From assembly GCA_022478985.1 (NCBI GenBank), contig JAKSZP010018526.1, forward strand, positions 1-64,000: a stretch of 64,000 nt of DNA. Direction: 5' to 3'. The notes under the pieces are model-generated. The model was given only the letters and a program-made list of their open reading frames with translations. It was not told the DNA's origin and did no database searches. The DNA is from Massospora cicadina. Its lineage: Eukaryota > Entomophthoromycota > Entomophthoromycetes > Entomophthorales > Entomophthoraceae. Positions 2,521-62,700 of the stretch are shown here, piece after piece (the stretch's first letter is position 1; each line of letters starts with the position of its first letter). Position numbers and translations under genes: made by a program.

Positions 2521-2689
2521 GCTGTAGTCCCACTCATTGCCCCTTGGATCCTGAGGAAGAGGATCTCATTACCATGATCCCTACCAATCAAATCTATTGA
2601 TCGCTCCCTCCATTGTTTCCTCTGCTTCATTGTCACCTGATGATCCATTATTGGCCCAGGTGCTAGCCGGTCAAACAGCCTGCCCTGAG

Positions 2690-3735: not shown

Positions 3736-4615
3736 TAGTGGAGAAGGTCTTGGGTAATGGGGCATTTCAGTTGAAGCTTCCCACGCATTGGAAGCAACAC
3801 CCAGTTTTCCATGTATCCCAGCTGTCACCCTTCAAGGGTGTGATTCCCATGGACCCAGAACCAATCGTCATCAACAATGAGGAGGAAGCTGAAGTGGAGG
3901 CCATCCTGTCATCTTGGAAGTTTTGACGATCAGTCCAATACCTTGTAGCCTGGAAAGGATATCCAGCTTATGAAAACAGTTGGGTCAAGGCGCACAATTG
4001 CGCGAATTGTACGGACCTGGTTGACACTTTCCACACATCCCACCCCAAGGCTCCCCACCTGCTGCAGAAGGCCGTGACAATTATGGCTATCAAGTACTTA
4101 AAGCGCATAAGAATGTGACTCTGGTGCAGTTTCCCGGTGGGGGGGCTGTCCCTTTGGGAAAAGGAAAGGGTAATGTAAGTCTTGGGGAGTGCCCTTTGGC
4201 TCTCAATCGAGCTATCTATTCATTCCCAAATAAGAAAACACCGAAGAGGATGGCGGTACCCCTCATCACCCAGGGCGATCTCACCCACGTAGTTGATGAG
4301 CGATGGGTGACAGCCTATCCACTTTGGATCCCACCTCCAATTCCCTCACTCACCTCAGCAGAACTGTTTCGGGGAATCAGTGAAATCTGTGCCAAGATTA
4401 TCAAACTGGAATTTGTCAGGTCCAATTTGGGTGGCAATCGGGCTGATGGCCAAAATTTAAATGGCTGTAAAAGCATGAATAATGAAACATTGGCTGGATC
4501 GCCCGACAGTTCTGATTTGACCCCAAAATCAGTAGAACAAATTCAGGTGCCATCAATGAGAGTTCAAAACCCCCCAATAGTAATTTGGGCGTTGCGCCCA
4601 ATGGGTTTCTATTGA
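3736..4615 (+). pseudogene. pol: Integrase C-terminal chromodomain and Pol tail running into the 3' LTR
   Basis: 3738-3926 encodes the linker LGNGAFQLKLPTHWKQHPVFHVSQLSPF, then after a stop at 3924 the chromodomain SVQYLVAWKGYPAYENSWVK (aromatic cage-type residues Y, W and the KGY/ENSW core). Chromodomains in these integrases steer integration to modified chromatin. From 4115 an open frame of 166 codons crosses the polypurine tract (read as GKGKGNVSLG) and the LTR start at 4174 and continues 440 bases into the LTR, including PLITQGDLTHVVDERWVTA. That block is conserved in both other chromoviruses with many third-position changes, so Pol probably ended inside the 3' LTR. Confidence 0.75.
4156..4173 (+). 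other. Polypurine tract of chromovirus copy 1
   Basis: Purine run GGGAAAAGGAAAGGG followed by TAA directly before the LTR start TGTAAG. It is the expected plus-strand primer. Copy 3 has the weaker equivalent AAAATGAAAGGG near 48008-48019. Confidence 0.75.
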
Positions 4616-5317
4616 CTGAACAAATGGTTAATCAACCAAGCGCAGGCAGGTTGCCCATCCTGAACCCATTCCCAACCAAATGGTCCCATCCCTATATTGG
4701 ATGGCCTTGGGGGATTCCTGTCGCTTGTTGGGCCAAACGCCATCATGCTAACCGTTGGAAACATAATCAACCCCTGGTTTAGACGGTTGAGGTTGAACTG
4801 ACAGAGACTCAGCCCACCGCTGAATTTTGCAATGTCGGTTTCCAAAGAATAAACCCCCCCATTACCATCCAATTCACCAGTTAGGCCAAATTTGTGGAAC
4901 TTTGTCATGTCATTGTCACTACCCAACTGATAACTAATTAATCAGTTGCATGGCACTGAGAAAATTATTGGTTAATTTTCTTACTTTCCTTTCCCAATAA
5001 AATTTTACCAAAATGAAATTTTTATCTGTTATTTTTCCCCTTTTACTGCATCCCTGATGGCATTTCTCTGGTGGTTCATCGCCCCACATTTTGGGTGGAC
5101 ATTACCAATTCTTTTGGTCACCATGACTCCCTTTGTTGCCAATTGGATCCAGCGATTAATCCTTACCTTTCTGCTATGCTACCACTGTGCTGTATCACAT
5201 TTCTCAGCTATCAAGTCGCACAGTCAACAATGCCCCTGGCATTCCAGCTTGCCTTAAGGATGCTCAAGCATCCCAACTGGCAGGCTGGTCTAAACTTTTT
5301 CTGCCGTTTCCATGACA
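4174..5317 (+). repeat. 3' LTR of chromovirus copy 1
   Basis: 1,144 bases from TGTAAG to CATGACA. Its last 475 bases match the window start. AATAAA lies at 4996-5001, followed by the same ATG-started Gag frame at 5057 as in the 5' LTR. The first 440 bases continue the Pol frame. A shorter relative of the LTRs at 42093 and 48027. Confidence 0.9.
4996..5001 (+). terminator. LTR polyadenylation hexamer
   Basis: AATAAA, conserved in the 5' LTR copy at 163-168. It lies 56 bases before the LTR-internal Gag ATG, so the R/U5 border would fall between the two and the Gag start would be in U5. Confidence 0.5.
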
Positions 5318-5560
5318 AGAAGTGAGAGGGTTACTTACCTTTAAAGCCTCCATTTTTGATAGTTTTTGAGGTGTACAGGTGTCCCCTGTAGTGAGCACCA
5401 TTTTGTAGAAATCCAGCTGGTTAGTGCTTACTGGTGCTTATGCCGCTGGATCCTATAAAAGAATTTAACAAAATTTAATAAGCACTAGTAAAAACTTGGT
5501 CTCATGGTTTTATTTAGAAGCGTGAGGAAAAGAAAGGAGAAACAATACTTTTTGATATCC
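5318..5560 (-). repeat. Fragment of a second-lineage LTR element (leader plus LTR end)
   Basis: Read on the minus strand, 5400 to about 5330 matches 58182-58252, including TGGTGCTCACTACAGG and the following CCTGTACACC and AATGGAGGC blocks. In that second-lineage element this is the sequence just inside the 5' LTR. Here it abuts the 3' LTR of chromovirus 1, so one element inserted into or next to the other. Nothing coding remains. From 5561 to 6046 I see no gene. Confidence 0.55.
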
Positions 5561-6050
5561 AACTGATAAGTATTTAAACTGCTTTAAAGGTCAGGGGAAT
5601 TTGAGGGTAGGTTTTGGAATAGCTTAGATGCTTTTCAAATTAGGAAATATAGTATCCTATCTTTTCAGATCTTGGGAAATTTTGAGTTACTTGTTGGTAA
5701 AACAACAAATGGGATGGGGTTTTGGGGCAGAATGTATCCATGTGGTAATATTTTGTTTATTTAAACTAATCACTTTTTGCTAGAATACTTTCACTTTTAG
5801 GGACCTCCGCCACACCTATAAAAGGGGGTAGTCCCCACGTAGGTGCTTGTAAGGACCTGGTTGTGGCAGGAAACATGCCTTCTGATGGTCACTCTGCATT
5901 CCATTGCATGTTTAGAGTAATCTGACTGCTTTAATTTACGTTTTTTGCCCGTGCAGGTTTCAAAATGATGTTACTCTATTTAATAGGGTTCCACCAAGCT
6001 TTGGCTGGTGTCTTTTGGCTGATATCCTCGATATTATCATTATCACATTA

Positions 6051-6172
6051 GGGTGGTTATCCTGGTAGGTAAACCTGCTTCCAACTCAGTGCAGGTTTTA
6101 AGTTCAAAACCTGTACTGGCTAGAAAAATTCTCAGCGTGGTATATTTGTCCCAAGTTTGACCCACCTCAAAT
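6051..6172 (+). repeat. Short tRNA-derived SINE, copy 1
   Basis: Same family as 17797-17925: GGGTGGTTA head, B-box-like AGTTCAAAACC, then ACCTGTACTGGCTA, the body GTGGTATATTTGTCCC and the end GACCCACCT. The A-box region is mutated. Imperfect 13-bp flanking repeats (TTATCATTATCAC, 6034-6046; TTATCATTTATAC, 6176-6188) are consistent with retroposition. Confidence 0.7.
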
Positions 6173-6399
6173 TATTTATCATTTATACTTTTATAAAATT
6201 TTACTCTTAAAAACATTGCAAAATCACAAATGGCTGGCACCTCCCCTTTTTGGCTGAATTTGAACCAAAACGTTCTTATTTTTCAGCTGTTAGGGCAAAT
6301 GTTCAACAGTTGTGTGGTTGATAATTATATTTAGCCTTTATAATTTCATTTCTTAATTTTATTGGCAGCCATCTACCAATATAAAAAAGAATTGATTTA

Positions 6400-7050
6400 G
6401 ATCATCTGGTCATCTTTAAGCCTTAAAAAATCTGTTAAACCTGATATCAAAAAAATTTTCTTAAACTTTTTTTACAAAAGTATCATTCTTTTTATTTGTT
6501 TATTGTGTATATAGGATGCATTATCTCATGAGCAAATAACCAAAAATCACTAAAATTGGCACAAGTACTATATAAAGTTATAGAACAGAATACTGATATT
6601 TTTTAAATTGTATAACTTTAAAATCAGCTCTATATAAGATCTAAAATATATTATAATGATAACTATATAGCAATTTTGGCTAAAATTATCATATTTATTT
6701 AATTTTATTTTTTCATAGGCTTTTATAAGTGGTTGTTAGTTTTTAACTGTTTTGTAAATTTAATAATTGGTTTTTGCTGAGTGGTGGTTTATTTCTTTGG
6801 TTGATTTAATAGGCTTTATAGTTTTAGTAAGTGATTGATGATTTAGATAACTTGATAGGTTTAATTGATTTGGGACAAGTGGTTGGTGTTTAGAAATTTT
6901 CTAATAAGTTTAATGGTTTTTAAACACTAATGATAGCTATCTAACAATATAAATACTAAGATAATTTAGAATCATCTGGTAATCTATAAACACCATATAG
7001 AAGTATGATATCCACTAGTCCACATAATAAAGTATATTTACTGACTAATT
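6400..7050 (+). repeat. AT-rich dispersed repeat with degenerate 50-bp units, copy at 6.4-7.0 kb
   Basis: No gene. It holds the shared block GGATGCATTATCTCATGAGC (6514-6533), a relative of the block at 40131-40180, then several degenerate units with the theme GGTTTAATTG...GGTTGGTGTTT between 6700 and 6930, and the shared trailer ATCATCTGGTAATCTATAAACACCA. The same order recurs near 40.3-40.7 kb. Confidence 0.6.
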
Positions 7051-7189
7051 GACTGACTGATTAACATCTAAAACCTTCTTGTCTGAAAGATTAATCTATT
7101 TAGGTGAGTGGTTGAGAATTAGCAATTATTATCAAATATGAAACCTTTGATTATGATAGGTCCAATCGATTTTGATGAGTGGGTGAGAA

Positions 7190-8824
7190 TGTCATGAATA
7201 CGGCTAGGGAGCTAGACTGGGTTCTCAGTCAGGGTGCACAAGCACCCAGTGGAGGCCCCAGAATGCCAGAGGTATAGCGGTCTGGGAGACCAAAATAAGT
7301 GGGTATCTATGGAACACATGAGGGAAGAAAACATTCAGTAACGTACCAAAGGCCCCCAAGGCAAACCAGATGGTTGCGTTGGGGGCAACTGCAAGTCTCA
7401 TGGGGGCAACCGCCAAGGGCGAGAGAGGCAGGGACAATGACAACTCCTCCAATGTTCACAGTTGCTGGCCTTCATAATCAGAAAAGGAAGGCTTGTGCGC
7501 CAGCGGGTGGCGGCACATAGACTGCCACGTTGTTGGAAATATGGGTAGAAGAGCGGGAAACCCCATGAGAGGGGCTAGGACTGAGTTTCCCCTGAAGGGG
7601 ACACTCTAGGTCCTTCTGGCAAGCTGGACCCACAGTGGCAGGGGAAGCTATGAAAGCCAAACCCACGTGTGGCAGGCAGGGTCAACTTGGGGCTGATCTA
7701 ACTGTGGAGAAGATTTGGTGGACTCAGCACCAAAATTGGAAGGGACTTCATTTAATGGATGTGGGGAAATGAACAGAACAGTGGACTCGCCCTTGGGGGC
7801 AAGATGGATTATTCATCTATGATCCGCTGCCATGTGGCAGGATTGAGCGACTGGATAATCCAGTATGCAAACATCAGGAAAAGGATCTGGGTGATGGCAC
7901 GCTTCATCAAATCAATTGACAGAATCATTTTAAGAAGTTGTGTTAGAGCAGATGGAGTCCACGGCAAACTAGGTGGATAATCAGATTTTATTTCAATGAA
8001 GCAAAAAAGAATGAACTGACAACTGCACTCATAGGGGCCATTTGCCTTTTAACAGTGCAATAGGCATGGGGGGAGTATCGGGGGATTGGTTATTAAGGGA
8101 ATGGAAAGGGGATTCAGTTGGCTAGCTCAGAGGGGTGTGAAAGGCAGCTCCCAATTTGGCAAAAGCTTGGAAAATTTTTGTAAATTTTTCCAACCTTTTG
8201 AGACCAATCCAAATTGATACTGCCAATCTGGTTCCTGATGACTCAAATTGGCCTGTTTGAATGGCTGGGGCATTCCAGATTTGTTGAAAGGCAGGGGTCT
8301 ATGAATTGGGTTCATTGCTACTTGGGCTGATCCCACAATTGGACAGCTCATATGATCTAAACTTCCAGGATCTGCCTTGGAATGTCAGACCTGATGATCC
8401 AAGATGTTCAAACTGAACTTGCAATCCAAGCTGTGTAATGATCCAGATTCTGAAACCAAAAAGCCTAGACCAGCTCCCCCAGTCCAGAAATTTCTCATCT
8501 GGGCTCTGACACTGGGAATTGCAATTTCCCCAATTTTTGGCCATGGCTTGCCTGGGGAGTGGATGGCCGAAGGGCCCTCTCCAAAGGCCCTGAAGTGAGC
8601 CATCTCCCTGCAGACCCCTTCTATTAATTATACCAGGATTGAAGAGAGGGGAAGGGGTGGGTGTGATATGGCTTTGGGGAGGAAAGCTGTCACCAAGTGC
8701 TCATCTATCACATGGGTGAGGTCACCCAGCTGTAACGGAGGCTCCATGAGAGTAAGGTCCCCTTTTCATCTGGAAAGGGTGCTGAACCCTTTCCAGTTTC
8801 AAGGGCTGGTTCCCAAGACTTACA
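7190..8824 (-). repeat. 3' LTR of chromovirus copy 2
   Basis: 1,635 bases, matching 13485-15122 throughout. On the minus strand it starts TGTAAGTCTTGGG and ends CATGACA. It encodes diverged forms of the LTR coding blocks: LQLGDLTHVIDEHLVTAF near its start and TAIPLAFWGLHWVLVHPD near its end. Confidence 0.92.
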
Positions 8825-9385: not shown

Positions 9386-10393
9386 ACTTTTTGTAATCCT
9401 TAATGAACTTCATCAAGTGTTCACAGACCAGGTTGTGCATCTCGCAGAGAGAGCTCACGCGGCCCTTGGAAGCCAGAACTGCTATGGAGAGTCGGGGACC
9501 AATCTTGAATGAGGGTTATACCCCAGAGTGGCCTCAAATGGAGAGAAGTTGTCGAGGAATTGAGGGAGTTAGTATATGCTAACTGTGCTAGGGTAGGTCC
9601 TTGGCCCAGGTGTCTTGTGAGGCCGTTGCGTAGCAGCGCAAGTACTGCACCAATACCTGGTTCACCCACTCAGTCTGCCCATCGGACTGGGGGTGGTAGG
9701 CAGTGGATCAATAGGCTTGATGAAAAGGAGGGTCAACAGCTCTTCCCAGAACTGGGCCATGAACTGGGGTCCCCTATCACCCACTATCTCCTTGAGGAAA
9801 CTAAACATGGCAAAGACATGGTTGACAAATAAATTTGCAGTCTCTACCACAGTAATATAAGAGAGGCAGGGGATGAAGAGTGCCAACTTGGTAAACTGGT
9901 CCATGACTACCATTATGGCATCAGAACCACAGGAGGGTGGGAGCATCATGATGAAATCCACTGAGACTGAGGTATATGGCCCCTCATCCTGCTGCAAGCG
10001 GTGCAACAGTCCCTTCTTCCCAGAATGGTTGGATTTTGCCCGGGTGCAGGTGACACAATTAGAGATTCAATTGGGAATGTCCTTTGAGGACCCAGGCCAA
10101 ATATAGGTTCTCTTTATATGATTGGCACACTTTTTGATACCAGGGTGGCTGATGGTCTGGGGGACGTGGTGTTCCTCAATGACATGGCTGAGTAGGGAAG
10201 GAGGAACCCAAACCCAATCATGGAACCAGATTTTCCCATCCTGCATGGTATATGGGGTCTTCTTGTGGCGCATGGACTCCAAGTCAACCAGAAGCACGAT
10301 TCCTTCAGGGCAGCATGTTTGAGAAGCGAGGACACATGGGAGGAGTGGAGTGGAAGGGTCTACATCAGCAAAATATATGACTGGATGAGCCAA
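9386..10393 (-). pseudogene. pol: Integrase zinc domain and catalytic core, copy 2
   Basis: Minus-strand ORF 10067-10393 contains the zinc-binding half (EEHHVPQTISHPGIKKCANH). ORF 9662-10006 contains the core with SVSVDFIMMLPPS, MVVMDQFTKLALFIP and EIVGDRGPQFMAQFWEELL. The third acid follows in another frame as [17 protein letters not shown]. All three catalytic acids are present, unlike copy 3. ORF 9421-9669 covers the post-core block. Frameshifts near 9700 and 10030 inactivate it. Confidence 0.85.
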
Positions 10394-10396
10394 TAA

Positions 10397-11696
10397 GAGG
10401 ATTTGGGAGGGGGCACCACCATCATAAGGTTCAATGGGTCCTCCTCCCCGTTGGGGGACAGGGAGGGGATACAGCTGAGCATGTCTGGCAAGACGTTCAG
10501 TGGGCCTTTGATGAATTCGTACTTAAAATTGGAACTCAGAGTTCTTGATACATGCGGGCCTGCCAGTGACCTAAATATTGAGGTTTAAAGTAGCAGAGCA
10601 AGGCCTTATGGTTTGTCCAAATGGTAAGTTCGTGCAGGGAGCCCTTCAGGAGATATTGTCAGTGGGTGAGCGACCACGCCACTGCTACTAGCTCCTTATT
10701 ATATATTGGCCAAGCTTTCTCAGTTGCGGTAAACTTCTAGGAGTAATAGGCCCAGGTTCTCAACTCCTTCATACTCCTGCAACAGCACCGCACCCATGGC
10801 CACTGACGAGGCATCGCAGGCTACTATGAAAGGTCAGGATGTTTCATCATGCTGCAGGACAGGGGCTGTGATGAACACCTCCTTGATACCCTCAAAGGCC
10901 TTCTGGCACTCAGGGGACCATTTGAAGAGGGTGTTCTTGTCTGTGAGGGGGTACAATGGGGCCACCAACTGAGCAAGAGTGGGGGAAAATTTCCTCAAAA
11001 AGGTGAAGGTACCAAGGAAGCTGCAAAGCTGCTTTTGAGTGGTTGGGGTAGGCCAAGAATGAATGGCCTCCATCTTACTGGGGGGACGGAATATCCATCT
11101 TTCAGGACAAGATTCCCTAGGAAGCTAACCTCATCCCTGAAGAACTCGCACTTGGAGGGCTTTGCAAATAGCCCTGCCTTATGGATGGCTGGCACAAACC
11201 GTCTCGAGGTCCCTGACATGTTGCTCAGGGGTGGGGGAATGGACCAGGATGTCGTCAATATAAGCCAATGCACAAGAGAACTGCAAATCCCCAAGCACAT
11301 TGTCAACAAGGCGTTGGAAGGTGGCTGGCGCATTTTCAAGCCAAACGGCATCACCTTGAACTGGAAAAGCCCCTGGCTAGTGTGGATAGCTGTGAGCCAC
11401 TTCTGTCCCCTCGCCACCCTCACCTGATTTAAGGTATTCACCAGGCCCAACTTCAAAAAGACATGAGACTTGGCAATGGCCTGTTCTATGCTCTTCTCTA
11501 AGGGCAAGAAGTATGGGTATGGAACGGTGATGTTGTTGAGATGTCCATAGTCGACGCAGGGGCGCAGAGACACATCTGCTTTTCTGGAAAGGACTACGTT
11601 GAGGGTGATCAGAGAAGGCGCCTTCATGAGCCACCCCTTCTCTAGCATGTCATCCAACTAACTGCTGAGAGCCCTATCTTCTTCCTCCATATAGGG
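10397..11696 (-). pseudogene. pol: Reverse transcriptase and RNase H, copy 2
   Basis: ORF 10995-11657 reads MDDMLEKGWLMKAP, VDYGHLNNITVPYPYFLPLE, SHVFLKLGLVNTLNQVRV and FQFKVMPFGLK. A frameshift follows, after which the other frame gives LQFSCALAYIDDILVHSPTP with an intact catalytic YIDD (11251-11262). ORF 10834-11073 is the thumb/connection (PTPTTQKQLCSFLGTFTFLR). RNase H follows near 10820-10400: FIVACDASSVAMGAVLLQ keeps its first aspartate, but TNHKALLYF has N where TDH is usual. Confidence 0.87.
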
Positions 11697-12344: not shown

Positions 12345-13484
12345 AGACTGGTCTGGATCTGCAGGAGTGGGATGCGGCTGATCTGGGGTCTATAACACTT
12401 CCTTGTTCCACATGGTTAGATGAGGGTTATTACGCACAACCCCTCCACTCTCTTCAGGAGGATGTGGGTTCACACTGGGGGATGATCTCATCACACTGAG
12501 CAGCCTCCAAACACTGGGGGATGATCTCATCACACTGAACAGACTCTGAACACTGGGAGCCTAATGATACAGCCTCCTGATCTGGGCTGGGAGCCGTCAG
12601 TTTCATAAAGTAAGAGTTCACTTTGGGGGAAGTTATCTGAGGAAGCCTCTGAGGGGGAGCAAAGGGCAGATAGACCTGGGGGACGCTTCCCCTGGCTGCT
12701 TCCACTGGCAGGGAGGAGGTGCAGCACGGAGTGCCTCATGGGCGATGATGGGACATGTGGGGTTGTGCCAGGTCCTGGCCTCAATTGTCCAAGCCACAGA
12801 AAATGCGACCTTTAAAGATCCAGGGAGATGATCCCATGCGGTATGGTCTGCCACAGTGGGGTCCAGGGCCACGCGGAATTTGGAGACTGTATTTTTGACT
12901 GGGATGGGAACTGTTGGAGCCAGGAACACGGAGGCCTCAATCAAGGAGGAAGGTCAATGGCTACCTGTCCCAAAGTAAACAAGCGGAGGAGGCGCGCTGG
13001 TCTTGACTCAGGAGCCTGGACTGATGAGGTAATCAACACCAACAAGTGGGTGGGGTTGCCCAGTTTGGCAGCAGGGAGGAGCACTCCCCTGACCCATCGG
13101 TGGGCATTCCCATACATGGCATCAAGAAGGGCCATGTTCTACTATGCATCAGAGGGAAGTGGGGACTTCCCCCATCAGCAGTGAGGCGCACCTGGATCTC
13201 TGCCAGTACGCCCAGGAATTGATCTGCCACCTCATCAGAGAGGACAGGGGGAACCACCAACCCTGTTTCATTCACTACAGGGGTAACGCTCTGCGTTGGT
13301 GCTTTATGGGCCAGGGACCAGTTCAGCTGAGCCTGACAGCAGGCCTGGTTGAATGAGGCTGCCGCCCAGCAGGAGAAGGCCAAGTCACAAAGGGAAAGCA
13401 CGCTCAGAGTGAGGGCGTAGGCCAGCGCATTGCCCATCCCAGTGAGGAGGGCGGAGAAGGCCAAAACTAGTGGTCAGTTCATTA
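12345..13484 (-). pseudogene. gag: Gag, internal part, copy 2
   Basis: On the minus strand just inside the 5' LTR: HDIMN, a stop, then PLVLAFSALLTGMGNALAYAL, equivalent to HDIIDQPLLPAISALIF in copy 1. ORF 13033-13464 continues with an Ala/Leu-rich segment and VSDEVADQFLG-like acidic helices. ORFs 12633-12944 and 12454-12705 follow in other frames. No CCHC knuckle is visible. A 13-residue repeat (QCDEIIPQC) sits at 12473-12556. Assignment rests on position between LTR and protease and on the shared N-terminal block. Confidence 0.6.
12473..12556 (-). repeat. 39-bp tandem repeat within gag, copy 2
   Basis: CACTGGGGGATGATCTCATC begins at 12473 and again at 12512, with a third partial start at 12551. 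Period 39, in frame, giving a duplicated 13-residue stretch containing AAQCDEIIPQC on the minus strand. Confidence 0.85.
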
Positions 13485-22194: not shown

Positions 22195-22810
22195 TCAATC
22201 CTGTCCAGCGTCAATCTTTTGGCGCCATTCCCTGTCCCTCAGCGTGGCTGGTACCAGTTGCCATTTGCATTTCCTTGGAGGTTCATCAAGGTCGATATCC
22301 ACACAGATGACCATGTGATCACTTTTGGCATTTATGCTAACCTCGCTGTTGGACGTCATCAGCTTGAGATCTGATGACACTAGGATGTAGTCTAAACGTG
22401 ATCCTGACAATGGGGATCCAATGACACCATATGGCCACCGCATTAAGTTGGCTGGGTCATCATCCTCTTTGTCAATCATTAGGCACATCCCCAATTTGAC
22501 TAGGTATTCAAGCATCTTGTAAGCCTTACTGTTGGGATGTTCTCTCATCAGGAACATATCCCAGCTCACATTCATACAACAGTTCAGGTCACCTGCTATT
22601 ATGGTCATCGCTTTGGATGGTACTTCCACTAAGGATTCCCAAAAAATAAAGTTTTCATGGTGCTTTGGTGGGGTGTAGACTGCTACCGCTCATATACTTC
22701 TGCAAGTATCTCTATTTGTAGCCATCGCTATCAAGATCCTACCAGCATGAGTCTCTTCCACAAATTCCAGGTCTATTTTCTTGTCCATTGCAACTATTGC
22801 TACATGGTCT
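22195..22810 (-). pseudogene. LINE AP-like endonuclease
   Basis: Nicks target DNA to prime reverse transcription. On the minus strand: HVAIVAMDKKIDLEFVEETH, then AVAVYTPPKHHENFIFWESL after one stop, AMTIIAGDLNCCMN, GSRLDYILVSSDLKL and KSDHMVICVDIDL. The GDLN, RLDYIL and SDH motifs are the diagnostic active-site elements. ORF 22195-22629 covers the C-terminal two thirds, followed by the linker to RT. Confidence 0.85.
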
Positions 22811-27211: not shown

Positions 27212-27929
27212 AGTGTTGTATACAAGAGAGAAAATATTAGTTAGCCACCACAGCATGTGAAGAAAAATGTTTTAAAAACATTTCTAGGCTACTTATCATT
27301 AATTACAGAATGCGAATCAAAAACTGCTTACAAACAAGCCAAAATCATCGGCTTAAGTAAGTTTAGCAATCCATAAAGCCATTCACCCTGTTTACAAAAA
27401 CTTTGTAGCTGAGGAAATCAAAGGTAAGCAAAAGCCCAGGTCCGTCTATGCTCTTTCTTTTTTAGTACTTGGTGGTCCCAACCTGAATATTTTTCCATGT
27501 TCTTAATTCTTTAGCTTAAGTAGTTAGTGTATAGGGGGTTTAGGTTATTTTTACAGATATTACATTTTTTTACTTTTTTCACATTTTTTACTTTAAATAT
27601 TATCATTTCCAATTTTTAGTTTTTTAAAACCACTTTTCACAGCATAATTTACATGTTTGCTTTTAAAAAATCATTTTGTGAAAAATAGGAAACTATGGAA
27701 ACTGGAAAAGATATTTGTAAAATAAGGAAATAAAAATTTGGAAACAAAAAAACTCTGTGAAACACTTTATTTTTAGTTATAAAAGTATGAGGTTTAAGCC
27801 AAATTATTTGATCACTTTTACTTAAAGATCATGAGCCTTCTTTCTTTATTTGTTTTAAGACATCTTCTGGATAATTAGCAAGCTTTTAACCATTAAATTT
27901 TTTAGCGTAAGCTACACTTTCTCACAAAA
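27212..27929. other. Spacer between LINE and methyltransferase pseudogene
   Basis: AT-rich, no gene. It contains AGTACTTGGTGGTCCC at 27463-27478 preceded by TTTTTT, which on the minus strand resembles the retroposon end GGACCATCTAGTACTAAAAA, but no convincing flanking duplication is visible. Confidence 0.4.
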
Positions 27930-39950: not shown

Positions 39951-40140
39951 TAATTTTTTTCATTCTTATATATAACCTTTATAAAAAAGTATATTTTTTG
40001 GAAAGTAGCCTATAATTGTTCCCTAAATTTATAGTTTTTTGTGTCAAGTAAGGTGATTTTTGGTTCATTCTTTCAAGAAATAATGTGTCTTCCACATACA
40101 CACAAAGTGATTTTTATATATATTAAGATAGGATGCATTA

Positions 40141-40155
40141 TTTAGTACTAAAAAA
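40141..40155 (+). mobile_element. Micro-insertion TTAGTACTAAAAAA with target duplication
   Basis: The 15-16-bp block AGATAGGATGCATTAT occurs at 40126-40141 and is repeated from 40156, separated by about 14 bases ending TAGTACTAAAAAA. A related uninterrupted copy (ATAGGATGCATTATCTCATG, from 6511) shows the pre-insertion state. Confidence 0.75.
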
Positions 40156-40329
40156 AGATAGGATGCATTATCTTATTAGCAAGTAACCAAGGATTATTAA
40201 AATTGGCACAACTACTTTATAAAGTTTAAAAATTGTAATATACCTTTTTTAAGAAAACTATATAAATTTTAATAATAGTTCTATATAAGATCTAAAAAGA
40301 TATATGTTTCTGATAGTAATTAGATAGCA

Positions 40330-44312: not shown

Positions 44313-45020
44313 GTGGAAAATTATATGATCAGGCTACCCAACGTTGACTTGGATTCTGTTCTCAACGTTGAACCAGTATTGGTACTGGCCCCAGAGTCAG
44401 CCAATACCCCTGAGCCTGAGTTGAATTGTCCAAATTTATATGTTAATGAGTCATTAAAAGCCCATATTGAAGAAGCTGGGTACCAAACCTTACTCTTCCC
44501 AACTTTAATACCAAAAGGACCCCCTCCCCCTTATTTACTAGCTATCTCTTCAGTTACAGCAGAGATGACCAAATCTACCAATAAACAGAAAAAAACCTAT
44601 TTTTTATTGCCCATAAAGAATAGTATTGGAGCTCACCATTTATCCTTTGAGGCTTTGGTAGATACCAGAGCAGCAGGTAATTTCATGAGTATAAAGTTAG
44701 TCCACCAATTTGGATCTTGACCTAGACTTGGGCCCTATGGTGATGGTTGCTTCATTAGCCTCCCAAATCTCATACCTAGTCTGATAGCTAGTACCTTTCT
44801 CAGTTCTCCAGTTTAGCTTCTGCGATTGGATCTCCGCAATGTTAAGCTTGGTGTTTCTAGTAATTTTGAGCGTAGGTTGTGGCGCTAGAAGTATGTCAAA
44901 ATTCACCTGGAGTCTATTATGTTGTCATTTGCTAATAATCAAACATAGGGGAGTTTCCTCTAGATGATACCTTACTAAAACTCAAGGCCACAGTTCCATA
45001 ACTTCCCTCATTTCCCCTGC
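44313..45020 (+). pseudogene. pol: Gag-Pol linker and aspartic protease, copy 3
   Basis: ORF 44313-44720 (135 codons) has an acidic Pro-rich linker and then AHHLSFEALVDTRAAGNFMS. The catalytic DTGA is DTRA here, a single GGA-to-AGA change from copy 1. The frame ends at 44718; downstream fragments continue the protease in other frames. The linker aligns with the start of the protease ORF of copy 1 at 577. Confidence 0.78.
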
Positions 45021-46420
45021 AGGCCTTCCATCAGATTTCCCTGAGGCATTAATGGACTATCAAAGTATCTTCAATTCTGAGAAGAAGGAATGTCTCCCCG
45101 TCATGCTAAATTTGATTTAGGGTTTAGAACAACGCCGAAGGTGGTATATTAATTGCTCTTTGTACCCACATACAGCGGAGGAGGAGGCTGCTTTTAATTC
45201 TTGGTTGGATGACATACTTAAGAAAGAGTGGTTGTTTAAAGAGACATCATCAGCTGCTTCTCACATCGTTTTTGCCTAGAAGGTCGATGGTTCCCTTCAC
45301 CCCTGCGTGGATTATGGTCACCTGAATAAAGTCACAGTATATGATACCTACTTTTTGCCCCTGGAGCAAAATATTTGTCAAGAGATTACTAAGCTACATG
45401 TGTTCTCTAACCTTGATCTTGTTAATGCCTTTTCCAAAATTCAAGTAATGAAAGCTCAGAAAAAGCTTACTGCTATCCAAAAGAAGAGGGTTATTTTTAA
45501 ATTTTTGAGTAATACCTTTTGGGTTGAATAATGCACCAACCACATTTTAAGGATAATTGATAGTGTGCTGGGTGATCTCCAATTCACTTGTGAAGTTGCA
45601 TACATTGACAATATTGGGTCACTACCTGAATCCCAAACAACTTGCAAAGGACTTGGAAGCAGTAGTGGCTGCCCTTCACAAGGCGAGCCTGTTTTTTAAG
45701 CCTTCATATTGTGAGTTTTATAGGGAGGAGGTTACCTTTTTGGGCGACCTTGCCAAAAAGATGGGTATGCTATTCCCCCCAAAAAAGTTGGATGCCATCC
45801 GCGAATGGCCAACTCCAACAAACAAAAAACAGTTGATAAGCTTTATGGACACTAACATTTTCTAAGAAATTTTCCCAGCCCTTTCCTATCTAGCCGCTCC
45901 GCTTCACCCACTCACAGGTAAGAATGTTCACTTCCATTGGACATCCGAGTGCCAGCTAGCATTTGAGTCAATTGCTGAGGTGTTCTTATCACCCCTATCA
46001 TAAAACATGTAAACCCATCCAAACCATATATTGTTGCATTTAATGCCTCATCTGTTGCAATTGGGGCCATCCTGCTTCAGGAGCATGGTGGTTTAGAGCA
46101 CCTGTTCACTTATTTTTTCCATAAATTATCCTCTACTGAACAATATTGGGCTATCTATATTAAGGAGTTTCAGCCATAGAATGGGCTTTGATCATTGGCG
46201 GTATCTGTTACAAGGCGCTCAGTATAAGTTAATGATTAATAAAGATCACCAAGCCCTTCTGTATGTCATAATCCACAGAAGTTGGCACATGGGCAAGCTC
46301 ACACCTACCGTGGTTTGTGTAGTTTCAACTTCAAATATGAGTTTGTGAAAGGTATGTTAAACGTGATTCCTGATTTCCGTAGTTGCAACCCTGCTCAAAG
46401 CCCCACAAACTCAGATGAAG
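45021..46420 (+). pseudogene. pol: Reverse transcriptase and RNase H, copy 3
   Basis: LPSDFPEALMDYQSIFN, the ORF at 45307 with MDYGHLNKVTVYDTYFLPLE and VFSNLDLVNAFSKIQV, then VAYIDNI in place of YIDD (45601-45612), losing the second catalytic aspartate. The 45557-45865 ORF gives LHKASLFFKPSYCEFYREEV. RNase H (46020-46420) reads VAFNASSVAIGAILLQEHGG, with N for the first catalytic D, and LAHGQAHTYRGLCSFNFKYE. Many stops. Confidence 0.85.
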
Positions 46421-46539
46421 CAGACCTGGTCATCAGGACTCCCACTACCCAAATCTTATCCATTATACCACATGTGGTCTCATCAGTGGACTTAACTCCT
46501 GATTCGCCTCTTAATTCACGGTTTTAGCAGCTCAATGGC

Positions 46540-47440
46540 CTGTCCCAAAGGAGTGGTTCTATTGGAACAATTGCCCCTTCCAACTCATAAATATTCTCTA
46601 TATTCCTTGGTGAAGGGTTTTATTAATTTTCGGTCATGAGTGTGGATTCCTCCTTTTTTAGAGCCAATATTTTTCAGTCTCATCACGACTCCCACAATCA
46701 GTCATCTGGGTAATAAGAAATGTTTGATTTGATTAAGTTGACTTATAATTGGCAGGCTTGTCAAAAGAAGTACCAGCCTGGATCGCCAATTGCATCACCT
46801 GCACATGGTCCAAGTCAGATCAATTGGGACGAAATGGTATCCTTCACCCTTTACAACAGGTGGAGAGTCCATGGACATTAAGCACATGGAATTTATTGTC
46901 AAACTTTCCTGTCCTACCAGGTTTACTGCAGTGATGGTGGTGGTCAATCGTTTTACAAAATTGCCCTATATATACTATGCTCTTCCACGAATTTTCAGAT
47001 AAAACTGCCAATCTCTTTGTGAGCCATGTGTTTTCTATGTTTGGTCTCCCACAGGTGATTATCCGCGACCGTGGTCCCCAGTTTACAAAGTAGTTCTGGA
47101 ATGAGCTTTTATCCATTTTAAAAATTACACCATGTCGTTCCACAGCATATCATCCCCAGTCCAATGGACAAACTGAGCGGGTTAATCAAATATTGGAACA
47201 GTTCTTGCGCTGCTATGCTGCAGCCATGAAGAGGACCTGGGCTAGTGAACTTCACCTTGCTCAATTTGATGATAACAATGGAAACAATGCTTCTATGGGG
47301 GTTACCCCCTATGAAGCAACTTTAGGGTATAACCCCTTCATTTTCAGTTGGCCCTTGTCTGTGGCCAGTGGTGCCAGCTGCCGTGGATCATGCAGAGCAC
47401 ATTTGGTCTACTTAGTCCTTGGTGTGGGAGCATCTTACAA
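46540..47440 (+). pseudogene. pol: Integrase, copy 3
   Basis: Zinc half: WIANCITCTWSKSDQLGRNG (46770-46830). Core: MDIKHMEFIVKLS (E where D is expected), VIIRDRGPQFTK followed by a TAG, and NGQTERVNQILEQFLRCYAA with the third acid kept. ORF 47193-47453 includes NASMGVTPYEATLGYNP. Damaged at the first catalytic acid and by stops at 46999 and 47091. Confidence 0.82.
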
Positions 47441-48026
47441 AGGCTATCAGTGACTACACGAATTTTGCAGATCAAAGTGGCTTCCTATCCATATATTGTG
47501 GTAGGTTACATGTCATTCTTGATACACGCCATTTGAGGATGCAGGTACCCTCCCAGGAATTTTCAAGCAAGCGTTCAGGTCTCCACTTGTTGGAAGAGGA
47601 TTCAGGTAATGGTGCTTTCCAGTTAAAGTTGCAAAAACTGGAAACAACATTTAGTATTCCACATAACTCAGCTGTCCCATTCAAGGGGACTATCCCCTCA
47701 GATCCTGAGACAATCGTAATTGAGGATGTGGAGGAGGCTAAAGTGGAAAGCATTATAGCGTCCCACAAATACTGGAGGCCAGTTCAATATCTTGTCGCTT
47801 GGAAGGGTTATCCAGCCTATGAGAACAGCTGGGTCAATGCCCGCAATTTCACGAAATGCATGGAACTGGTTGAAGCATTTCGCATGTCCCATCCCAATGC
47901 TCACCAGCTCCCCAAAAAGTTGCAACTTTAATGGCGATAAAGTTTCCCAAGGCTCACAAAAATGTATCTCTCATGCAGTTTTCTGGCGGTGGTGCCCCTC
48001 CTCTGGCAAAATGAAAGGGTAATATA
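47441..48026 (+). pseudogene. pol: Integrase C-terminus with chromodomain, copy 3
   Basis: ORF 47419-47931 (170 codons): LEEDSGNGAFQLKLQKLETT, then RPVQYLVAWKGYPAYENSWV and MELVEAFRMSHPNAHQLPKK. It is the most intact chromodomain in the window. FPKAHKNVSLMQFSGGGAPP follows in the next frame, and the purine run before 48020 leads into the 3' LTR. Confidence 0.85.
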
Positions 48027-49509
48027 TGTCCAGGGTAACATCACCTCAGCATGGATCGGACAATTTTCACTTTTTCTAATAAAAAGGGTCTGAATCTGGG
48101 CGGCTATACCCCTCATCACCCAGGGTGACCTTGACCATTGGTAGATGAGCGCTGGGTATTAGCGCTCCCTCTGAAAATTCCTCCCCCAGTTCCCATGCTT
48201 TTCTCTGCTGACTTAGTTTGCCAAATCAAGAAAATCTGCGCAGAATCATTAGTAACCATCTTCCCCATGAGCTGGAGGGACTTTATAAAACTGATGGCGC
48301 CAAATCCTCAGAATTGAAGCCAAAATGTCTAAAATATATGGGAATAAAGCCTGATGAGCGAGAAACTAATAGTTGGAAGGTGACAATTGAAAATTTTTGG
48401 TCAAAATCATGATGGCATTGAGACATTAAGCAATACATTTGCTGACGCCAAATTCCCCTCAAAATAATCGGGGACAATCCCTGATGGGCTGGTATCACCA
48501 TCAGGTACTGTTGACAATAGTTCAAAACCACCATTTAAAAAATTAAGATTGGAGTTTAATGGTACCCATTTGGCAAATTAATGCTCCAGTAACTACATGG
48601 GCAGGTTGGCCTTCCTAAACACATTTCTGATCCATTGGGACTGCCCTTATTTAGGGTGGCCCTGGGATATTCCCATTGTCTGTCAAAACAGATGCCATCG
48701 TGCTAACCAATGTAAATGAAGTAAAACCTTGAGTCAGACATCTGTGGAAAAACCATTAGAGACTTGGCCTAACACCAAATTTTTTGATGTCAGTTCAGAT
48801 TAGAATCACATCCCCTCCCTCAAAATTTGTCAAATTAGGTCAAAATTTGAGGGCCCTAATACCGTAGCTTTGACAAGCTGACCCAGATTAAACACTATTT
48901 AAATAAATTGCACTGAGGAAATTGTTGGTCAATTTCTTAATTTTTACTTTCAGTTATATTCCCTACTAGCACCCAAATTTCAATTATTCTACTTCAATTC
49001 TTCTTGCCAAAGTCCCAATGGCAAAAAACTTTGTGGCCTTTCAACCCCTATACTGGATGGGCTATACCAGTTTTGAGGGTCACAATTGCTCTCACCATAA
49101 TCAACTGGATCCATTGTGCAAGAAATTATTGAAATTTAATCCCATTGTTGAATCTATCCGCTACCAGGATATCAGAATCTTGTAGCCTCAAATATCTCCA
49201 ATTCAAGCAATGATCCACACCCTTGTCTCTGCTTTGGTAATGACCCCTTCCCTTGGAAATCCCAAAGCAGTTATTTCAATAGTGCAACCCCCTGAAGTAA
49301 GGCCCGCAAGGTCTGGGGTTGCATCTGTTTGGTTCATTGCCAGTTTACTTTTCACAATCACTGCCCATCAATGAGCCATTGTTGCCCAGATTCCCACACC
49401 ATATAACGTCATTTAAGCAATGCCACTGGCATTCTGGCTTTCTTTTTTGGGTGCTTTTGCATCCTGACTAGCAGGCCAGTCTAAACTTCTTATGCCATTT
49501 TACTTGACA
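48027..49509 (+). repeat. 3' LTR of chromovirus copy 3
   Basis: 1,483 bases, matching 42093-43583. Ends TTGACA, then the target duplication TTAAC. It repeats the Gag-start region at 49018 (MAKNFVAFQPLYWMG after small indels). Confidence 0.92.
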
Positions 49510-49526
49510 TTAACATACTAATTTTC

Positions 49527-50647
49527 TGTTGAGAACGGCCGCACAATTTTCCCCTTGTGCTTCAAATTGGATCATTCAAAGCGTAAATGCCCCACAGTTT
49601 TTGCCTCTTCCAATTCCGCTGCCCCTTCTTCTGGCGTTAGCCCAGTTGCGGCCATGCCAAATTCTTTAAATGGGGCGTGATCCACCCACCATCAACCTTA
49701 GGGAATTCTGGCACTGCTTCAAAAGCAGCAGCCAATAGAAAGTTTAAAAAGATGTAAAAATTTAAATATATTACTGGGTTACAGAATCCTGAGTTGGTGG
49801 CTGAAATAGTTTTGGTTTAGCTATGGTTGACTGTTTGCAGCCAATCAGGTTCCGCCACTACACCAACTCTTATGGCTGGGCCAGCGCTAGCTGAGCTTAA
49901 TCCATTTTAGCGTCTCAAGTAAATCAATGAAAGTGACTGGCCCTTCAATGTCAAGCCAGAATTTGCATTGAAGGAGTTTTTTTAATAATTTTCTTAATAT
50001 ACACCCACACCGTTTTCACTCCAAATATGGCTTCCCAAATTCATAAAAATATAAATAAAATGGCGGTGGAAGCTGCAGCTGCCCCTGCCAACACCCTCCT
50101 CCGCCAACATCTCCATGGGGCGATGGGACCCCTAGTTTAGGGTATTCCTATAACAAATTCCCCACTGATTTTGTTGAAGATGCAAATTATGAAATTGAGA
50201 AGTTCACTTTAGGTGCGAGCTACACTTTAATTGATGCAGCAAAAATTTTATTTTTGACCCTAATTATCCCAAAACCCACTGGCGCATTAAGTCATTCACT
50301 TGTGTGCCTGCTCTCATCACTTTTACTGAGTGTCAAATTGCTCAATATGTTGAGGTTATGGACACTTCTGGCCTCATAAACGATGAAACCCCACAACTAT
50401 ACTTCCTTATGCCCCATGTCGCTGATGCTCCCACCCCGATGCTGTCTGACATGGTCTGCCTGCTAAAGCAGGCGCCAGACAAAAGCTTCCCCAAAGCCTT
50501 TTCACATTCTGATATGGCTTCCTAGGCTGATAACCTAGGGGGCTACACTAGGAATCTTTTAATTTATGATAATCCCTTTGTTTGGGCCATTTGGAAATAA
50601 AGTTGCGTGGCGGCTCCCCCTTTGGGTTATGCACCACTAGTACTAAA
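49527..50647 (+). mobile_element. Unidentified poly(A)-ended retroposon, 1.1 kb, with target duplication
   Basis: Flanked by perfect 15-bp repeats AACATACTAATTTTC (49512-49526 and 50648-50662). The 3' end is GCACCACTAGTACTAAAAA, 30 bases after AATAAA (50596-50601). Variable-length target duplication plus an A-ended 3' terminus indicate target-primed reverse transcription. It landed on the right target duplication of chromovirus copy 3. No RT is encoded, so it is either 5'-truncated or mobilised by another element such as a LINE. Confidence 0.85.
49540..50586 (+). pseudogene. Protein remnant of the unidentified retroposon
   Basis: Decayed frames in order: CFKLDHSKRKCP-like Cys/His stretch near 49560, AGPALAELNPF (49880 region), MAVEAAAAPANTLLRQHLHG (50060 region), then the 73-codon ORF 50304-50525 (MPALITFTECQIAQYVEVMD, LYFLMPHVADAPTPMLSDMV) and finally NPFVWAIWK before a TAA. 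The inverted copy at 55768-57675 has the same blocks with conservative changes, so a real protein was encoded. A gag-like nucleic-acid-binding protein is conceivable because of the Cys/His stretch, but I do not recognise the family. Confidence 0.5.
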
Positions 50648-50662
50648 AACATACTAATTTTC

Positions 50663-53814: not shown

Positions 53815-53909
53815 TTAAAGTTTTTTATTAGATATGAGATATGAGGTTATTATAGTGATAAGCAGTCATCAATTGCCTGCCTATATAAATGTAATAGTGA
53901 TTGAGAATA

Positions 53910-53928
53910 GGACCGTCTAGTACTAAAA
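53910..53928 (+). mobile_element. Micro-insertion, 19 bp, with 17-bp target duplication
   Basis: GGACCGTCTAGTACTAAAA lies between perfect copies of AATAGTGATTGAGAATA (53893-53909 and 53929-53945). Its last 12 bases equal the 3' end of the retroposon at 49527-50647. Confidence 0.85.
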
Positions 53929-53945
53929 AATAGTGATTGAGAATA

Positions 53946-55767: not shown

Positions 55768-57675
55768 TTTTTTTAGAACTAGTGGTGCCCAACCCAAAAG
55801 GGTGGAGCCACCACACATCTTTATTTCCAAATGGCCCAAACAAAGGGATTATCATAAATTAAAAAATCCCTAATATAGCCCCTAGGTTATCAGCCTAAGA
55901 AGCCATATCAGAAGGCAAGGAAGATTTGGGGAAACTTTTATCCGGTTCCCACTTTAGCTGGAGGACCATGGCGGACAACATAGCGGTAGGGGCATCAGCA
56001 ACATGGGGCATGAGGAGGTATATCTGCGGATTTTCTTCATTTATGAGGCCAGCGGTATCCATCGCCTCAACATATTGAATAAGTTGATGCTCAGCGAAAG
56101 TGATGAGATTCAGCACACAAGTAAAAGAATTGATACACTTTTATGTTTTGGGGATAGTTGGAGTCAAAAAAAGAGGTTCTTGCTGCATTAATGCAAGTGC
56201 GGCTCAAACCAAAAGCAAGCTCCTCAATTTCATATTAAGCATCTTCATCAAAATTGGAAGGATTAGGGATGGGAATACCCTCAACTAAGGGTTCCATCAC
56301 CCAATGGAGATGCTGGCAGAGGAGGGTGTTGGCAGGAGCAGCTGCGGCTTCAACTGCCATTTGATTGACATTTTAATAATATGGAAAGCTGCTTTTAGAG
56401 TGACAATGGCGGGGGCACGAATTGGGAAGGTCAATAAAAAACTCCTCCAACGCGAAATTCAGCTTCACATTGTATGGAGCGGTCACTATCATCAATCCAA
56501 ATAAGACACTCTAATGGATTAAGCTCAGCTAGCGCTGGCCCAGACACAGGAGTTGGTACAGTGAGTGAATCTGATTGGCTATGAACTGCCAACCATGGCA
56601 GCTCAGCTAAAACTGTTTCAGCCATTGACTCAGGATTCCATAACCCAGCCAAATTATTCAAATTTTTAAAAAAAGTTAAATTTTGATTTGCTGCTGCTTT
56701 TAAAGATGCACCAAAATTACCCAAGGGTGGTGGCGGGAGGATCATGCCCCATTCAAAAATTGGGGTGAGGCAGCTGCTGAGGCGGTGCTAGAAGGAGGGG
56801 CAACAGAAGTGGCAGAAGCAGAAACCATGAGGCACTTGCACTTCAAGTGGTCAAGCTCAAAGCACAAGGGGAGATGGCGCAGCCATTTTGACATGCGGCT
56901 AAAAAGTATGATCAGGGGCAGACCTGATCATGGTGCAGGGGGTAATTGCATGATGGGTGTCTCAATAAAATAGGCTGATCATCACAAAAGTGTGATGGCC
57001 TGCCAGATAATCCACCCCATGGGGCACCACAAACTGCAACATGGGGTCTGTGCCGCAAATGGCCAAAACCTCCATGAGCTCATAGCAGAGGCGTTCAGGG
57101 GAAAGGAAGGAGGGCAGCCTAGCGAACTGGACCATCAAAGTGGCCTCATATGGGAGCCTGTTGTGAACGGTGAGAAGAGGAATTTTTTTATAAATTAATT
57201 GCAGCTTGGCTGCTGCTGATGCATCAGCTTCAGAATGGAAGCTGAGGTCAAAATACCCCTTAAAGGGGTGGAAGTTGATATAGCTGGCAGGTTAGAAAAC
57301 TGCCGTGGCCACCTTGATGATGGCCACAATTCCATATGGGAAGAAAATCCCATATTCAACCTGTTGGGTGAAACACAATTGCTCCGTGGGAGCACTAAAG
57401 GGCTCCAGAGCTCTACCTAAGCTTGTGAGGTGGTGGGTCAAGTCTCGAGGGGGGACATAACGCCTGTAATGTTGGGAGGGCTAGCAGAGCCAGCCCAGGC
57501 GCGCTTTGGCAGCTGCTGTAAGATGCCAGATGGCGGCGCACCACCAAACCAGGAGGGGCAGAAGGCGTCAATTGCATTGATATTGGTAAGCTTTGGCTTG
57601 ATTGAAAGGTCATGTTTTGTATTTTTTAAAAAAACTGAATTTTGCTCTAATTTAGGTATTGAAGCGAAAGAAAGA
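55768..57675 (-). mobile_element. Inverted, longer copy of the unidentified retroposon
   Basis: Minus-strand copy of 49527-50647 with about 0.8 kb more at its 5' side. Its 3' end reads GGGCACCACTAGTTCTAAAAAAA. The protein remnant includes ORF 55895-56116 (FAEHQLIQYVEAMDTAGLIN, YLLMPHVADAPTAMLSAMV), SGPALAELNPLECLIWI (56431-56745) and MAVEAAAAPANTLLCQHLH. It lies inside the 5' LTR of a Gypsy. Candidate target copies: AATCAAAATACTTC (55754-55767) and ATCAAACTCAAAAACTT (57675-57691). Confidence 0.75.
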
Positions 57676-57690
57676 TCAAACTCAAAAACT

Positions 57691-57708
57691 TTTTTTAGTA
57701 CTAGATGG
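57691..57708 (-). mobile_element. Micro-insertion, 18 bp, with target duplication
   Basis: TTTTTTAGTACTAGATGG between TCAAACTCAAAAACT (57676-57690) and TCAAACTCAAAAGCT (57709-57723), one mismatch. On the minus strand it ends CCATCTAGTACTAAAAAA. Confidence 0.8.
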
Positions 57709-57830
57709 TCAAACTCAAAAGCTTCCAGATTGCTGATTAGGAGATTATATTAGTGTTATTCCATGGTTACATCATCCCAGAGATGATCCCATACCAAAAA
57801 TGTAAGTTATGTCAAGGAAAAAAGATTATT

Positions 57831-57848
57831 TTTAGTACTAGATGGTCC
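57831..57848 (-). mobile_element. Micro-insertion, 18 bp, with 18-bp target duplication
   Basis: TTTAGTACTAGATGGTCC between CAAGGAAAAAAGATTATT (57813-57830) and CAAGGCAAAAAGATTATT (57849-57866), one mismatch. Minus-strand end GGACCATCTAGTACTAAA. Confidence 0.82.
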
Positions 57849-58181
57849 CAAGGCAAAAAGATTATTAAGATTCTTGATTGGCTAAATTATCATTAATCTT
57901 AATTGAGCGAACATTTACCTATTCTGAATTCTGCTAACTTTCAGCACTTTTATCCTCAACTTATACAAAATAGTAGGGGTTGACGTTATAATAGGTTATC
58001 ACTTTTACTCCCCAGTCTGTTATTAATAAAACTTATATAAAAACTAAGCTTCATTTGTGATTAATTTCCCCTTAAAATTTTTAATAGCGGCTAAAAAGTT
58101 TAATACACTAGTATCCACAATAATGTTAGAGTCATGTGACAGAAACACCTGCAAGGACCAAAGTTCCAGGATTCCACTAAG

Positions 58182-62100: not shown

Positions 62101-62139
62101 TAGGGGCCCATTAACCACCCTATCTTAGACTAACAAAAC

Positions 62140-62700
62140 GAGTACCTGTGATCCTGGAGGCTCATACTATCTTGGGGCATGGTAGAGTACAAAAAACCTA
62201 TAGGTGGTTTAAAGAACAGTACTACTGGAAGAGAGTCATGGAAGTCATTATTGAAGTCCTAGATGCCTGTAACAACTTTAAAGGCAATCTGGCTTTAAGA
62301 CCAAGTATCAATACCAAATACTGCGCCTCAACAGCCTTTCCACAAGATAAGCTTAGATGTGGTTGGCTCTCTACCCAGACTACTGGTGGAAATCAATATG
62401 TCTTAGTAGGTATCAATCATTTTAAAAAATGGGTCAAAGCTGTGGCTCTCCCTGAGCAGACTGTAAAAGCTACCGCCACTTTCCTTCTTAATAATATTTT
62501 CACTCGCTATGGATTTCCCCAAGTCCTCCTCTACAATGGGACGAACTTCACCTCTAAAGTAGTCAAGATTCTAACTACTTCCATGAGGGGAAAAAGCTCT
62601 TTTAAAGCCCCATATAACCCTTATTCAAACGGTAGCATTGAAAGAGCAAATAGAATAATAGTAATATACTGAGAAAATGTCAACTTCTGACCCTCTACAG
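62140..62700 (+). pseudogene. pol: Integrase of the second-lineage Gypsy
   Basis: A 174-codon ORF (62148-62672) is the longest intact stretch of this element. Zinc half: AHTILGHGRVQKTYRWFKEQ, YYWKRVMEVIIEVLDACNNF (first H-H and one C; second C degraded). Core: the first acid lies in another frame (LDVVGSLP); GGNQYVLVGINHFKKWVKAV; FTRYGFPQVLLYNGTNFTSK, where the second D is missing; and NPYSNGSIERANRI with the E. Not functional. Confidence 0.82.

Follow-up and report, generated by a model that had tools for sequence, protein, structure and literature searches.

Micro-insertions of a LINE tail flanked by target-site duplications in the genome of Massospora cicadina

The genome of Massospora cicadina carries inserts of 11–52 bp that represent the 3′ tail of a 6.4 kb LINE and are flanked by target-site duplications. 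In the sample taken, insertions of this family are almost all-or-nothing, as they are either of this size or near full length with few in between, and the 5′ ends of the short ones are clustered. The micro-inserts very probably arise by target-primed reverse transcription (TPRT) of the LINE tail. Inserts left by this family are for the most part similar in length to the duplications around them, and repeat annotation would probably miss such short sequences; LINE insertions are usually noticed only if they are long enough to annotate.

Micro-inserts in the window

The window, which is the whole stretch of 64 000 nucleotides analysed, displays at positions 53893–53945 of the + strand a 19 bp insert, GGACCGTCTAGTACTAAAA (53910–53928), between two copies of a perfect 17 bp direct repeat, AATAGTGATTGAGAATA (53893–53909 and 53929–53945). 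An earlier note, made from the sequence alone, had described this arrangement. The arrangement is confirmed, and the 18-base core of the tail, GGWCCRTCTAGTACTAAA, is rarely matched by chance: with up to three mismatches it is found four times in the window, compared with a mean of 0.17 and a maximum of 2 in 100 dinucleotide shuffles. In the LINE tail, the insert corresponds to the 3′ end, and one base differs from the usual sequence (CGTC for CATC). The same note had taken it for the 3′ terminus of a 1.1 kb element of the window that ends in GGGTTATGCACCACTAGTACTAAAAA. The last 13 bases, CTAGTACTAAAAA, are indeed common to both, but the tail of the 6.4 kb LINE is the better match.

Three siblings are present. 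A 17 bp perfect duplication surrounds the 13 bp insert TTAGTACTAAAAA (40142–40154) at 40125–40171 (+ strand). On the − strand, an 18 bp duplication with one mismatch surrounds the 18 bp insert GGACCATCTAGTACTAAA (57848–57831) at 57813–57866, and a 16 bp duplication with one mismatch surrounds the 17 bp insert CCATCTAGTACTAAAAA (57708–57692) at 57676–57724. A degenerate tail copy with two mismatches to the pattern lies at 27461–27478 (− strand), where no flanking repeat was found. The window was scanned for exact direct repeats (at least 11 bases, at most 80 bases apart, complexity filter); this gave nine pairs, whereas 20 Markov copies of it gave 0–4 each. An insert with TAGTACTA is present in three of these nine pairs, and a motif-led search of the window added one more site with this layout.

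Flanking repeats are found at 22 of 92 distinct TACTAAA words in the window and 20 loci (264 kb, some overlapping), a figure that is not a genome rate because the loci were picked for carrying the motif. Of the 22, two are without the tail, and another is a reading of the 40125 site on the opposite strand. Four control words gave 0/22, 0/79, 0/98 and 3/67. No empty form of the inserts at 40125, 53893 and 57866 was found in the DNA compared; the first of these sits at a repeat boundary and is therefore uninformative in this respect.

The window has several other features. A fragment of a LINE endonuclease open reading frame (PF14529, with PF03372 below cut-off) lies at 22195–22689 on the − strand, and the protein search used returned no homologues of it. 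Decayed Ty3/gypsy-like pol pieces, 66–68% alike, are found at 737–4181, 44607–48030 and about 9500–11660 (− strand), and a further Ty3/gypsy-like piece, with an integrase zinc-binding match, is at 62115–62672. A tandem repeat with a 39-base unit, present in 2.2 copies, is at 12472–12557.

Abundance in the genome and target-site duplications

The genome assembly comprises 1.47 Gb in 16 968 contigs. The tail 13-mer CTAGTACTAAAAA is found 39 550 times, and 143 times when read backwards; the corresponding numbers for GGWCCRTCTAGTACTAAA are 21 791 and 0, and those for CATCGATGAATCCCC, which take in long LINE copies, are 6799 and 1. Viral contigs gave no match to the tail pattern.

A sample of 139 sites was assembled from 100 places of GGWCCRTCTAGTACTAAA (contigs C1–C12) and 40 additional places of CTAGTACTAAAAA (those listed up to C5:148223), minus one duplicate among the 40. 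Repeats of 11–22 bases were accepted within 200 bases at a score of at least 10, with a mismatch cost of 4 and a complexity filter. By this rule, 107 of the 139 sites are flanked by repeats (76/100 and 31/39), and 84 of the 107 repeats are perfect. When downstream flanks were swapped among sites, repeats appeared at 0–1 of 139 in 20 shuffles. An earlier rule, applied to 102 sites including two in the window, had given 79 with repeats, and 0–2 with swapped flanks in 10 shuffles. The comparison of motif and control proposed in the earlier note thus comes out clearly for the motif, with swapped flanks, not shuffled sequence, as the control.

The 32 sites without repeats consist of 15 long LINE copies, five long copies of a related family and 12 scraps of tail. 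Under a looser rule, seven of the 12 scraps score at least 10, as do three of 200 swapped pairs, but only those at L043, L066 and L148 are above the top swapped score of 11; the repeats of L043 and L066 lie in AT-rich sequence. The consecutive stretch from C1 to C5:148223 has 89 sites, namely 70 micro-inserts with repeats, seven scraps without, seven long LINE copies and five long copies of other type. If 70/89 is scaled to the 39 550 copies, with the contigs assumed to be typical and exact 13-mers only being counted, the genome extrapolates to ∼31 000 micro-inserts. Two sampled sites 6.4 kb apart on contig C1 (L111 and L112) have the same duplication and the same 11 bp insert, perhaps as a copied segment or repeat.

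Duplications at the 107 sites are 11–22 bp in length, with a median of 16, and 87 of them start with AAA, AAG, AAT or AAC. Long copies have them as well: exact flanking repeats of 12–17 nt are present at seven of nine long copies examined, including the truncated copy L012. The repeat at L069, read by eye, has one mismatch, and none was found at L019.

Insertion is also evident from paralogous repeats in which the insert is absent and the target is present once. The earlier note had suggested a search for allelic empty sites; those found are paralogues, not alleles, and are clear at four of six aligned sites. One micro-insert (L054) sits inside a LINE copy, and its relatives L010, L011, L018 and L019 (93–95% identity) are empty with one target copy. 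The other three empty paralogues have identities of 94% (L022), 88% (L023) and 80% (L067). Alignments at L033 and L020 gave no clear picture of an empty site.

Donor LINE

The donor is a 6.4 kb LINE with an L1-like reverse transcriptase (RT), whose tail ends in GGGTTGGGACCATCTAGTACTAAAAA and has the layout AATAAACATC-GATGAATCCCCCC-TTGGGTTGGGACCATC-TAGTACTAAAAA. The copy at locus L010 extends from about 2367 to 8823. Its open reading frames match endonuclease PF03372 (E 2.7e-10) and RT PF00078 (E 7.8e-34), and a zf-RVT match is slightly under the Pfam cut-off. The RT matches human LINE-1 ORF2p at 1e-36 and R2 at 1e-27; judged by these sequence matches, it is of the L1 type. An APE-type endonuclease together with an L1-type RT, and duplications of variable length from an A-rich target start, are features of the L1 clade that this LINE shows. 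Those of the best 120 RT matches that carry a name are mostly from fungi and plants, at no more than 40% identity. Two tandem repeats of 376 bases are present near the 5′ end of the LINE (L010, 2882–3634), and also in L018 and L019; L011 apparently has one.

The family of the 1.1 kb element and its similar tail

The 1.1 kb element (49527–50647) belongs to another family, referred to here as CACCAC. It has the tail CACCACTAGTACTAAAAA and, with its perfect 15 bp duplication AACATACTAATTTTC, occupies 49512–50662 on the + strand. A second copy, 76% identical, is at 55770–56872 on the − strand. In the related tails of this family, namely those of both window copies, L012 and L028, AATAAA (or ATAAA) occupies the same position. 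The five CACCAC-family copies among the 139 sites have family sequence upstream, i.e. they are long, and no repeat was found within 200 bases of them. No micro copy of this family was recognized among the 139 sites, although the origin of very short inserts starting at CTAG is ambiguous between the two families. The 1.1 kb element was rejected as donor of the micro-inserts: its match is weaker than that of the LINE tail, and the five sampled sites with its type of tail are all long.

Insert lengths, 5′ ends and junctions

Insert lengths at the 107 repeat-flanked sites fall into two classes, 11–34 bp (79 sites) and 41–52 bp (26 sites), plus one insert of 100 bp and one of 141 bp. These last two are apparent chimeras with foreign sequence upstream of the tail. 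The foreign part is purine-rich and about 74 bases long in one (L101); in the other (L107) it is about 100 bases long and joined at AACATC. Both may possibly reflect template jumps (LINE chimeras are treated in PMC13174262).

At the other extreme, 13 of 15 long LINE copies extend to within ∼240 nt of the 5′ end of the element. Alignment with L010 covers 6461 bases of L018, 6036 of L019, which falls ∼240 nt short of the L010 5′ start, and 5568 + 891 of L011. The truncated copy L012 is about 516 bp (aligned over 518). The ten other long copies were assessed from two chunks each: all ten have a LINE match 400–700 bases upstream, and nine reach to within ∼110 nt of the 5′ start. The tenth (L102) ends between ∼0.7 and 6 kb.

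Starts in the short class are scattered; most lie between TAGTAC and TTGGGTT, which puts them at the 3′ strand of the hairpin predicted for the tail, or inside that strand. The 41–52 bp class is different, in that all 26 starts can be placed in a 5 nt stretch at AAACATCG, just 3′ of AATAAA, although the C-run of the tail varies; a fixed-length ruler is therefore unlikely. An exact ACATC start is compatible with 21 of the 26 if one or two extra bases are allowed, and such bases precede ACATC at the 5′ junctions of L063, L086, L121 and L147. These positions were counted by hand, with bases common to the duplication assigned to the insert.

Among the 79 short inserts, 60 are an exact LINE suffix up to the junction; in the other 19, between 1 and 14 bases at the 5′ end do not match, some as variants instead of extra bases. 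At least one base is shared with the duplication end in 27 of the 60 exact inserts. Shuffled ends gave 16.6 of 60 on average, and reached 27 in three of 2000 trials. In human L1, microhomology is reported at nearly 80% of 5′-truncated insertions and at chance level in full-length ones (PMC2912911), a comparison that is indicative only, as methods differ.

Tail hairpin

The hairpin predicted for the LINE tail RNA is GAUG..UCCC/GGGA..CAUC. Over 16 tails from the two families, 55 of 64 cells are paired at the four closing positions, compared with 15–35 of 64 for slid partners. Pairs were counted by script in eight LINE tails (picked from the 15 long copies as distinct variants) and eight CACCAC tails, because MAFFT alignments misregistered the 5′ stem strands. 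Two-sided changes between the families are found at pair 2 (A-U to U-A) and pair 3 (U-A to G-C), and hairpin strands taken across families pair at 41%. Of the 16 tails, 11 can form the outermost pair. LINEs with stringent template recognition have a conserved 3′ stem-loop. For a putative stem-loop of that kind here, the pairing counts are favourable, but the energy of the LINE-tail hairpin is no better than that of its shuffles (z 0.03). Predicted folds of CACCAC tails are often as stable or more so.

Mechanism of formation and alternative explanations

TPRT with extreme 5′ truncation, the reading put forward in the earlier note, is supported by the oriented tail, the duplications at 107 of 139 sites and the paralogous empty sites. 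On its other side are the modest 5′ microhomology (27 of 60, with 16.6 expected) and the 12 scraps among 139 sites that have no repeat under the main rule. We infer every enzymatic step that follows, and also that the stops are those of RT on full-length RNA. The LINE endonuclease would nick the target, and RT would prime on the nick and copy the short A-run and TAGTACTA of LINE RNA before it meets the 3′ hairpin. Most reactions would get no further than the 3′ strand of the hairpin, giving inserts of 11–34 bp. Some would open the hairpin only to halt at a single position immediately 3′ of AAUAAA, giving 41–52 bp; beyond this second barrier, the small remainder would usually continue to near the 5′ end of the element (about 6.4 kb). 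Normal second-strand nicking and synthesis would leave duplications of ∼16 bp, at micro and long insertions alike. The element may then be a switch-like LINE, whose abortive mode leaves 11–52 bp tails at sites numbering in the tens of thousands and whose processive mode yields copies near full length, a picture that is offered tentatively.

As the cause of the stops we lean towards arrest of RT, first at the hairpin and then at another position close to AAUAAA, with about an even chance of being right. Simple stalling on a stable stem is disfavoured, as it predicts the opposite of what is seen in the CACCAC family, which with folds often as stable or more so gave five long copies and no recognized micro copy, albeit in a small sample. 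The LINE hairpin itself is no stabler than its shuffles, and the outermost pair is present in only 11 of 16 tails. In addition, the exact start of the 41–52 bp class, the extra junction bases and the join in L107 fit the 5′ end of an RNA at least as well as they fit arrest.

Alternatively, the templates themselves may have been short. Cut or trimmed LINE RNA could leave 3′ fragments of ∼45 nt and less that are copied whole in trans, for instance through 5′-to-3′ decay halted at an RT-bound hairpin or through cleavage beside AAUAAA; RNA 5′ ends would then lie at ACAUCGAUG or inside GGGUUGGGACC. The nearly fixed start of the 41–52 bp class, whatever the length of the C-run, would be expected of one discrete RNA template of short length, which leaves the minimal mobile unit, the alternative put forward in the earlier note, conceivable. 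The extra bases at four junctions, the L107 chimera joined at the same point, the few intermediates from 52 bp to several kb, and microhomology below that given for truncated human L1 (PMC2912911, by different methods) point the same way. However, 11–34 bp inserts start at scattered positions over the hairpin 3′ strand, as stalling of RT would give, and microhomology is still above chance. Short templates are thus a serious candidate, though on balance somewhat doubtful. If they exist, a ∼45 nt RNA with a defined 5′ end beside AAUAAA would rank as exceptionally small among natural templates for TPRT.

A self-standing minimal element, with a dedicated gene for a ∼45 nt hairpin RNA and mobilized by the LINE in the manner of a SINE that lacks the Pol III head, would also account for the discrete 41–52 bp class and for the 6799 copies of CATCGATGAATCCCC, long LINE copies being included in that number. 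It is improbable, as the 41–52 bp inserts display tail variants (CTTGGG, CTCAGG, variable C-runs and CATTGATG) that are found in long copies as well. Their templates therefore appear to be many LINE copies, which disfavours a single master micro-element.

Chance, tandem duplication or slippage, DNA-repair filler and a DNA transposon have a negligible likelihood: a local duplication could explain one isolated case, but not the recurrence of an oriented tail with repeats at 107 of 139 sites (0–1 when swapped), the paralogous empty sites, the directional inserts ending in an A-run or duplications that vary from 11 to 22 bp.

With TPRT of the LINE tail as the preferred reading, the genome would be a large natural record of stops made by RT in the first 50 nt, so that counts could be brought to bear on how truncated LINE insertions come to differ from full-length ones. 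More generally, insertions of ∼30–70 bp that contain direct repeats can be scars of retrotransposition and not products of replication slippage.

Comparison with known systems

Truncations of human L1 are spread broadly over the element. The insertions described here resemble 5′-truncated human L1-type insertions in the endonuclease and RT domains, the A-rich start and the near-16 bp length of the duplications, retention of the 3′ end with loss of the 5′ end, and some 5′ junctions with extra bases or chimeras. They differ in that sampled lengths are 11–52 bp or near full length, without a broad range of truncations (two of 107 exceed 52 bp, and both are chimeric), and in the nearly fixed 5′ ends of the 41–52 bp class.

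Stringent-type LINEs with a 3′ stem-loop include the L1 lineage of maize and sorghum, UnaL2, ZfL2 and the fungal Tad1 (PMC3747384, PMC5135761). The tail described here is similarly conserved, with a short A-run and a predicted hairpin that has compensatory changes between two families; RT may recognize this putative hairpin. Mass tail-only inserts are seen here, and the passages of PMC3747384 and PMC5135761 on which this comparison draws make no mention of them. No report of such inserts was found among the titles and abstract openings listed in searches of open-licence literature, which is weak evidence of novelty.

SINEs with a LINE tail are likewise non-autonomous copies that end in that tail and have duplications. 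However, inserts of 11–52 bp have no room for a Pol III head, and they have variable 5′ ends and no single master sequence. They consist of LINE tail plus at most a few extra bases, with neither a Pol III promoter nor a small-RNA gene as head, and the 64 kb window gave no tRNA or Rfam match. The inserts also do not resemble MITEs or other DNA transposons, as the tail is directional with an A-run and duplication length is not fixed.

CNL1 of Cryptococcus is an R2-type fungal LINE whose truncations have been ascribed to premature ending of TPRT (PMC12810828). Like the element described here, it is a fungal LINE that gives truncated insertions, but it is of a different type, and its inserts are from 180 bp to about 3.5 kb in length with duplications of 0–13 bp (PMC12810828).
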